DNA from: Umbelopsis ramanniana AG
Lineage: Eukaryota; Mucoromycota; Umbelopsidomycetes; Umbelopsidales; Umbelopsidaceae
DNA length: 64,000 nt
NCBI RefSeq assembly: GCF_025399195.1
Contig: NW_026252103.1
Coordinates: forward strand, 1 to 64,000
Direction of reading: 5' to 3'
In this document: positions 21,001-30,592 of the stretch, in pieces
Position numbering within the stretch: the first letter of the stretch is position 1
How the letters are laid out: each line of letters begins with the position of its first letter
Program-made: the position numbers and the translations under genes
Notes under the pieces: generated by a model
The model's database searches: none
What the model saw: the letters and a program-made list of their open reading frames with translations, nothing else
What the model was told of the DNA's origin: nothing

Positions 21001-22291
21001 ATGATGCTCTATAAGCTGGTTGTTCTCGGCGACGGAGGTGTAGGAAAGGTATGAAGAAGCGCAACTAATCTTTTCGAGATAATCAATACGTGACCAATGC
21101 TCACCCACCATTCTTCATCAGACCGCTTTGACCATCCAGGTAGATTATCAGATAGCCCATTTCCTGTTTGGACCCGTACTTCACACACAAATGCCAGTGG
21201 AGGGCATAGTAGTTCGAAATACGATACGAACTAAATCAGACCCAATCGACGTATTGGCTAATTCACAAAGCTGATTGCCGTCGAGAAACTTCGAGTTTTA
21301 TTCGAGTCCCATCGACATGAACAGTATTATAACGTCTATTACCAAACGACAGACCCGCCCATCGTTTATATGAAAAACTGAACACAGCTGCGTTCTGTCG
21401 TTGTCGCCACCGATTTCAAATAATGTTTTGTATGATTATCAGTATATCTAACCATCCTTTTGTTTTTTATGTATTTGTCATAAATTTTTACAGCTATGTC
21501 TTAATCACTTCGTAGGTAAGTTGCACAACTTCGATTTTCCAAGCCATGTATGACAGTGTACTGATCAAAAAAATGCGCACTTTTTTTATATTACGATTAT
21601 TATATATTCCACAAATCTTGGCTACACTCTCCACAACAGAGGTAATGCTTTTAACTTTTTTTCTTTTAAGTATGTTATGGTTGCCAGAAACTAATACCAC
21701 TCATTTAATTCTTTCTTGATTACTTTTGCGGAATTATAGACTTATGACCCCACTATCGAGGACTCATACCGAAAACAAGTTGTTATTGATGAGCAGCCAT
21801 GCGTGCTTGAAGTACTGGATACCGCTGGGCAAGGTATCCTTAGATAACCAAATTTGGTGATGTTTCATGCTGATCCTTGTTATTGACTCGGGCTTCATTC
21901 AACAGAGGAGTATACCGCGTTGCGTGACCAATGGATCCGCGATGGTGAAGGCTTTCTTTTAGTCTATTCCATATCGTCACGCTCAACGTTCGAACGCGTT
22001 GAACGTTTCCGTGATCAAATATTTCGCGTCAAAGATGTCGATAATGTACCCTTGATGCTTGTTGGCAACAAATGTGACAAAGTCACCGAGCGCGAGGTTT
22101 CGCGTGAAGAAGGTTATGCCATGGCCAAACGACTTTCCTGCGACTTTATTGAAACATCAGCAAAAACATGCGTTAATGTAGAAAGATCCTTCTATTCAGT
22201 CGTCAGGATGATCCGCGCTAATCGCGAAGGAGGCTATGGCCATCAACCTGGCACAAAGAAGAAGCAGAAAAAGAGATGCTTGATATTATAA
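21001..22291 (+). CDS. Ras-family small GTPase (fungal RasB/Ras2-like), with predicted 2-nt micro-exon
   Basis: Six exons: 21001-21048, 21122-21139, 21494-21515, 21640-21641, 21740-21833 and 21906-22291, giving 189 residues. G-motifs are complete: GDGGVGKT (P-loop), [12 protein letters not shown] (switch I effector loop), DTAGQEEY (switch II, Gln kept), NKCD, and ETSAK. The polybasic tail [11 protein letters not shown] ends in a CaaX box, CLIL. Its final Leu favours geranylgeranylation, so a plasma-membrane or endomembrane GTPase controlling growth, cAMP or polarity is likely. The sequence runs [20 protein letters not shown] and then IQLCLNHFV before the switch I region. Reading across from HFV to TYDP requires two extra bases, AG. 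They are supplied by a 2-nt exon with perfect flanking splice sites. The intron before LCLNHFV is unusually long (354 bp). Confidence 0.92.

Positions 22292-29499: not shown

Positions 29500-30592
<1,093 letters not shown>

Follow-up and report, generated by a model that had tools for sequence, protein, structure and literature searches.

Introduction

Exons shorter than a codon are already known: single-nucleotide exons have been described in APC11, VPS55 and CYP621A. The exon of Arabidopsis APC11 is constitutive and was tested by constructs and cDNA, and its authors' proposal is intron definition in which the two introns leave in succession (PMC4674806); the 1-nt microexons of plant APC11 and VPS55 are conserved deep into land plants, pervasively misannotated and backed by RNA-seq (PMC8831610). 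For fungi, a single-nucleotide exon is reported in CYP621A of Fusarium and confirmed by SRA reads, in a paper that also mentions 2–5-bp exons in plants, flies and humans (PMC12940212), and a 20-nt, glucose-regulated microexon switch is described in Xlr2 of Trichoderma virens (PMC11121469).

Here we describe a Ras2 gene of the fungus Umbelopsis ramanniana AG that very probably contains an exon of 2 nt. It resembles APC11 in being a predicted constitutive exon far below exon-definition size, revealed by the demands of frame and protein (PMC4674806); unlike that 1-nt plant exon, tested by constructs and cDNA, it is 2 nt long, lies in a fungal Ras2 and is known from DNA and protein models. With the exon of CYP621A it has in common a fungal host, an ultra-small size, a place in a conserved motif, conservation across orthologues and a tendency to mislead automated annotation (PMC12940212). 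The Fusarium case has its SRA reads; here the second gene, and models broken in other phyla, hint that the exon is more widespread and older. Deep conservation coupled with widespread misannotation is also the pattern of APC11 and VPS55 (PMC8831610), although these are plant genes with RNA-seq, whereas the Ras2 case is fungal and drawn from the DNA of one genome and from protein models. Like Xlr2, it concerns a fungal micro-exon within a conserved domain (PMC11121469); unlike that 20-nt, glucose-regulated exon, it measures 2 nt.

Among the matches listed in our literature search, in which subscription journals were mostly outside the scope, we found no exon of 2 nt reported for any fungus or for Ras2. 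If true, the occurrence of such an exon across fungal phyla, in a gene of core signalling, would be new, and if it is ancestral it would rank with the oldest and smallest conserved exons on record. Exons of such size show how far splice-site recognition and gene annotation can be stretched. Should the wide distribution hold, one gene would offer a natural series across phyla for the splicing, retention and loss of a sub-codon exon.

Results

A Ras2-type gene with six predicted exons

The window, a stretch of 64,000 nucleotides at the start of contig NW_026252103.1, belongs to an assembly of 22.8 Mb in 123 contigs. Its gene at 21001–22291 (plus strand) encodes, as assembled, a Ras2-type GTPase of 189 residues, with coding exons placed by spliced protein-to-DNA alignment with foreign proteins (Table 1). 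Membership of the Ras family is indicated by PF00071 matches at 21740–21835 and 21902–22216, and the C-terminus, ...KRCLIL, is a CAAX-type tail. The translation is 85–90% identical to the seven top-ranked named proteins (P0001–P0007), and what we take to be the P-loop, switch I and NKCD motifs are discernible in it. Exons 2, 3 and 4, of 18, 22 and 2 nt, are consecutive and together make up 42 nt, a frame-neutral length. A further small-GTPase gene with PF00071 matches lies about 8 kb downstream (29851–30483, minus strand); the window was also scanned for Rfam families and tRNAs, with no matches.

Table 1. Coding exons and introns of the Ras2 gene, in window coordinates.
Feature	Position	Strand	Length (nt)	Intron phase	Content and basis
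Exon 1	21001..21048	+	48		16 residues; spliced alignment and translation
Intron 1	21049..21121	+	73	0	spliced alignment
Exon 2	21122..21139	+	18		small, TALTIQ; spliced alignment and translation
Intron 2	21140..21493	+	354	0	spliced alignment
Exon 3	21494..21515	+	22		LCLNHFV and first base of codon 30
Intron 3	21516..21639	+	124	1	GTAAGT...CAACAG; spliced alignment, splice-site scoring
Exon 4 (predicted)	21640..21641	+	2		AG, completes GAG (Glu30); exon enumeration and spliced alignment
Intron 4	21642..21739	+	98	0	GTAATG...ATTATAG; branch-point-like CTAAT at 21691..21695
Exon 5	21740..21833	+	94		TYDPTIED...; spliced alignment
Intron 5	21834..21905	+	72	1	spliced alignment
Exon 6	21906..22291	+	386		includes stop; CLIL-stop, CAAX-type tail

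Two bases restore the frame and the conserved protein

Exon 3 ends CAC TTC GTA G, in phase 1, and exon 5 starts ACT TAT GAC, in phase 0, so that two bases (modulo 3) are missing between them. Fused directly, the two exons read HFVDL and then a stop. Homologues show exactly one residue to be missing here, Glu30, which lies at the start of switch I. The AG at 21640–21641, flanked by CAACAG and GTAATG, would complete its codon.

The 224-nt gap (21516–21739) was enumerated for every GT-AG exon of 0–23 nt with a length of 2 modulo 3 and flanking introns of no fewer than 35 nt; enumeration stopped at 23 nt because the protein alignment has room for a single residue. This AG, coding E, was the sole frame-restoring exon. 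The introns 21516–21639 and 21642–21739 were recovered exactly by spliced alignment of Radiomyces P0001 and Syncephalis P0018, and the score of P0001 fell from 767 to 754 when the AG core was blocked. The locus thus has the properties by which an ultra-small constitutive exon may be recognised: restoration of frame and of a conserved protein, AG and GT at the borders, and a single candidate. The initial annotation, which had proposed the AG as a 2-nt exon completing GAG and had foreseen a stop upon direct joining, is borne out by the sequence on both points and in its coordinates (21494–21515, 21640–21641, 21740); its reading is the only canonical parse that we found, and alignment of foreign proteins agrees with it. 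It did not notice the 18-nt length of exon 2, the second gene with a 2-nt exon or the damaged annotations in other fungi.

Two other arrangements were considered and rejected. A recursive splice site, or zero-length exon, would retain no bases and yield the HFVDL-stop product. In a spliceosomal twintron (stwintron) an internal intron interrupts a splice site of the external intron and nothing between them is retained; here two bases must stay to encode Glu30.

Chance was gauged on 5,000 dinucleotide shuffles of the gap, in which AG-AR-GT fell at an allowed place in 1.3% and YAG-AR-GTA in 0.16%. The case is weaker by the density of AG-AR-GT across the whole window (41 and 31 matches on the two strands, or 0.07–0.10 per 150 allowed positions), on which basis the chance would be 7–10% rather than the 1.3% of the shuffles. 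Chance is dealt with mainly because the AG recurs in a second Ras2-like gene and, by protein model, in U. vinacea. Taken together with the form of the breaks in public models described below, frame, enumeration and recurrence make it very probable that the 2-nt exon is real.

The same dinucleotide in a second Ras2-like gene

The genome holds a second Ras2-like gene (contig C64, 76400–78600, minus strand; locus L029), 78% and 83% identical to the window gene over two matched pieces. Its junction reads ...GTAG/gtaagt...cttgtag/AG/gtaacc...aaattag/ACATAC, the AG lying at 1049–1048 of L029 (minus strand) between a 150-nt phase-1 and a 101-nt phase-0 intron. Alignment of P0001 scored 714 with the AG and 701 with its core blocked. 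The introns of the two genes gave no alignment above shuffles (90 and 211 of 500 shuffles scored as high). This gene lacks intron 2, exons 2 and 3 forming one 40-nt exon, but has the 2-nt exon. Its sequence would also allow an overlapping exon of 8 nt (EVT), which was rejected since homologues have only E. In a tree, the position of the second gene against other fungi was not resolved, which leaves the age of the duplication unfixed.

The dinucleotide is conserved in related genes despite diverged introns, judging by DNA for the second gene and only by a protein model for U. vinacea.

Splice-site strength

Sites were scored with a matrix built from 30 introns in 9 of 20 GTPase loci of the same genome, placed by our own aligner; the other 11 loci were left out. 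The donor of intron 3, at 21516, scores 11.8, above all 30 genome introns, and the acceptor ending at 21639, just before the AG, scores 8.1, above 24 of 30. The micro-exon's own donor, GTAATG, scores 5.8, which is above only 7 of 30 (the lower quarter) and is matched or exceeded by 4.7% of all GTs in the window; the last acceptor, that of intron 4, scores 4.3, above 12 of 30. The description "near-perfect splice sites" in the initial annotation consequently holds only in part. In the second gene the same four sites score, in order, 11.8, 11.7, 5.6 and 9.5, so that the donor after the AG, at 5.8 and 5.6, is mediocre in both genes and exceeds 7 of 30 in each. Intron 4 has CTAAT 45 nt from its acceptor. 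The sole CTRAY match of intron 3, CTGAT, lies 75 nt from the acceptor; in those training introns that have a match, the last one is found at 4–48 nt.

Alternative explanations and the order of splicing

The missing AG could also come from a single intron, 21516–21737, with a non-canonical GT...AT end: cutting two bases early keeps the AG of the acceptor, and G + AG + ACT again yields Glu-Thr, no micro-exon being needed. The letters work because any acceptor ends in AG. On this explanation the intron would be GT-AT in the window gene and GT-TT in the second Ras2-like gene, combinations that the spliceosome does not normally use, and the mid-gap YAG-AG-GTAA of both genes would be left unexplained; we regard the explanation as very improbable. 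Slightly less credible still is a gene broken by pseudogenisation or assembly error, with no correct mRNA. The stop produced when exons 3 and 5 are joined directly is what would be expected of such a gene, yet the remaining frame stays open through to a CAAX-type tail, the window Ras2 is identical to the models of U. vinacea and U. isabellina over 135 aligned core columns downstream of the junction, and the second gene shows the same arrangement.

A third possibility grants that the AG exon is real and makes it regulated, with inclusion tuning the output of Ras2: skipping would give the stop, and use of the GTAGGT donor an in-frame product without V29-E30. Compatible with this are the predicted products of splicing error (HFVDL-stop; in-frame HF/TY; in-frame skips of exons 3–4 or 2–4) and the weak donor after the AG in both genes. 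Donors this weak are not rare in the genome, 7 of 30 being weaker, and products that lack switch I residues should not work as Ras. Regulation is accordingly unlikely in our judgement, if appreciably less so than the other two explanations. Our main reading, to which we assign a probability of roughly 0.93, is that this is a working Ras2 in which codon 30 is split by a phase-1 intron and a phase-0 intron follows at once, leaving a constitutive 2-nt exon that is spliced, most likely, by intron definition in two steps.

Two nucleotides are too few to be defined as a unit, and the plausible route, as argued for APC11 (PMC4674806), is that the introns are defined instead and removed successively. 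One flanking intron, probably intron 3 with its strongest donor, would leave first and fuse the AG to its neighbour; the other would then be removed with the AG already part of an exon of ordinary size. The last base is G in exon 3 as in intron 3, and the donor 9-mer of the micro-exon, GAGGTAATG, is therefore unchanged by the removal of intron 3. Simple errors would lead to a stop or to a Ras missing part of its N-terminal core, so that selection should hold the sites. We infer this order of splicing, as we do constitutive inclusion and a great age in fungi.

Models from Umbelopsis relatives

Protein models, not DNA, were surveyed for the best 120 of 7,872 homologues of the window Ras2 (E <= 0.001). 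The highest identity among them, 99% over 85%, is that of P0015 from U. vinacea (Mucoromycota, Umbelopsidales, by taxonomy look-up). This model starts inside the upstream intron: its first 23 residues match translated 21573–21641 at 21 of 23 positions, the Glu of GAG is the last of them, and TYDP follows directly. Passage from GAG straight to TYDP implies the same donor after the AG in U. vinacea. P0026, from U. isabellina, carries the junction expected from skipping exons 2–4 (42 nt). The locus had been foreseen as a trap for gene callers, and the public models of these two species are both broken here.

Broken Ras2 models in other fungi

Among the same best 120, indels affect residues 15–37 in 39 proteins, residues 38–99 in 4 and positions before 15 in 3; among the 120 listed for an Ascomycota-type query the corresponding counts are 4, 0 and 3. 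Blocking the AG core in silico makes the spliced aligner produce LCLNHF/TYDP in both genes, because the GT of codon 29 then acts as donor. Exactly this HF/TY break occurs in 11 of the 41 named models that are not intact (after correction of P0022): P0029 (Phycomyces blakesleeanus), P0034 (Rhizophagus), P0041 (Piptocephalis), P0048 (Radiomyces), P0054 (Podila), P0060 (Martensiomyces), P0064 (Glomus), P0079 (Piromyces), P0083 (Violaceomyces) and P0096 and P0098 (Gigaspora). Eight models show TALTIQ/TY, corresponding to a skip of exons 3–4, which by itself shows only a missed small exon. Six read through as HFVG: P0008 (Calcarisporiella), P0020 (Mucor), P0039 (Thamnocephalis), P0044 (Actinomortierella), P0074 (Linnemannia) and P0085 (Powellomyces); in five of these the residues past G, read by eye, fit a translated GTRNGT donor. 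HF/TY alone could reflect a skipped 6-nt VE exon, and it is the HFVG class that argues for a phase-1 donor. The remainder comprise the two Umbelopsis models; P0025, with readthrough after Q22; P0051 and P0063, where VN follows HFVE as though translation continued beyond the micro-exon; P0076, without the exon-2 residues and with HFVESY present; and ten that could not be parsed from protein alone (P0010, P0023, P0045, P0066, P0067, P0092, P0110, P0113, P0118 and P0119). The six taxa that were looked up belong to Calcarisporiellomycota, Zoopagomycota, Chytridiomycota, Mortierellomycota, Neocallimastigomycota and Basidiomycota.

Four genera (Phycomyces, Radiomyces, Rhizophagus, Linnemannia) contain intact models as well as broken ones. 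In Phycomyces the sister species differ, P. nitens P0009 being intact and P. blakesleeanus P0029 having HF/TY, which suggests annotation error. Public Ras2 models needing checks are flagged by the signatures HF/TY, TALTIQ/TY and HFVG readthrough; comparative work on fungal Ras that used them would carry a wrong switch I.

Orthologous fungal DNA was sought in genome contigs, where 61 pattern matches included one relative, a Lokiarchaeota GTPase of 36% identity that was set aside, and in viral contigs, where two pattern matches included no relative. Conservation outside this genome therefore rests on protein models, which point to the exon being probably old in fungi. On balance we favour the view that it dates back to the ancestor shared by chytrids, zoopagomycetes and mucoromycetes and was kept by frame constraint through most of the history of fungi. 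On this view Ascomycota have largely lost it, and about forty of the listed public Ras2 models have been damaged by it unnoticed.

Intact models, basidiomycetes and ascomycetes

Within the best 120, Ras2 is intact in length in all 25 entries from short contigs (<3 kb) without organism name, which as unspliced predictions should be cDNA-like; these open reading frames are consistent with inclusion of the exon. One of the 25, P0097, is not a typical fungal Ras2. Of the 91 entries with organism names, which include one record from a fish and one from a fern, 49 are intact by script and 50 after correction of P0022. Four entries set aside, three on long contigs without organism name and one from EukProt, are also intact.

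Violaceomyces P0083 is the sole basidiomycete with HF/TY among the models listed. A basidiomycete query yielded 43 further proteins, of which 12 have an indel near the junction and none has HF/TY or HFVG. Two Microbotryum models, P0121 and P0124, read HFIE then VS..., resembling donor readthrough directly past codon 30; they suggest an intron immediately after codon 30 and say nothing clear about one inside it. For the Ascomycota-type query, P0216, P0225 and Hypoxylon texense P0266 diverge from the family immediately past HFVET, a codon later, which suggests a different intron position in that group.
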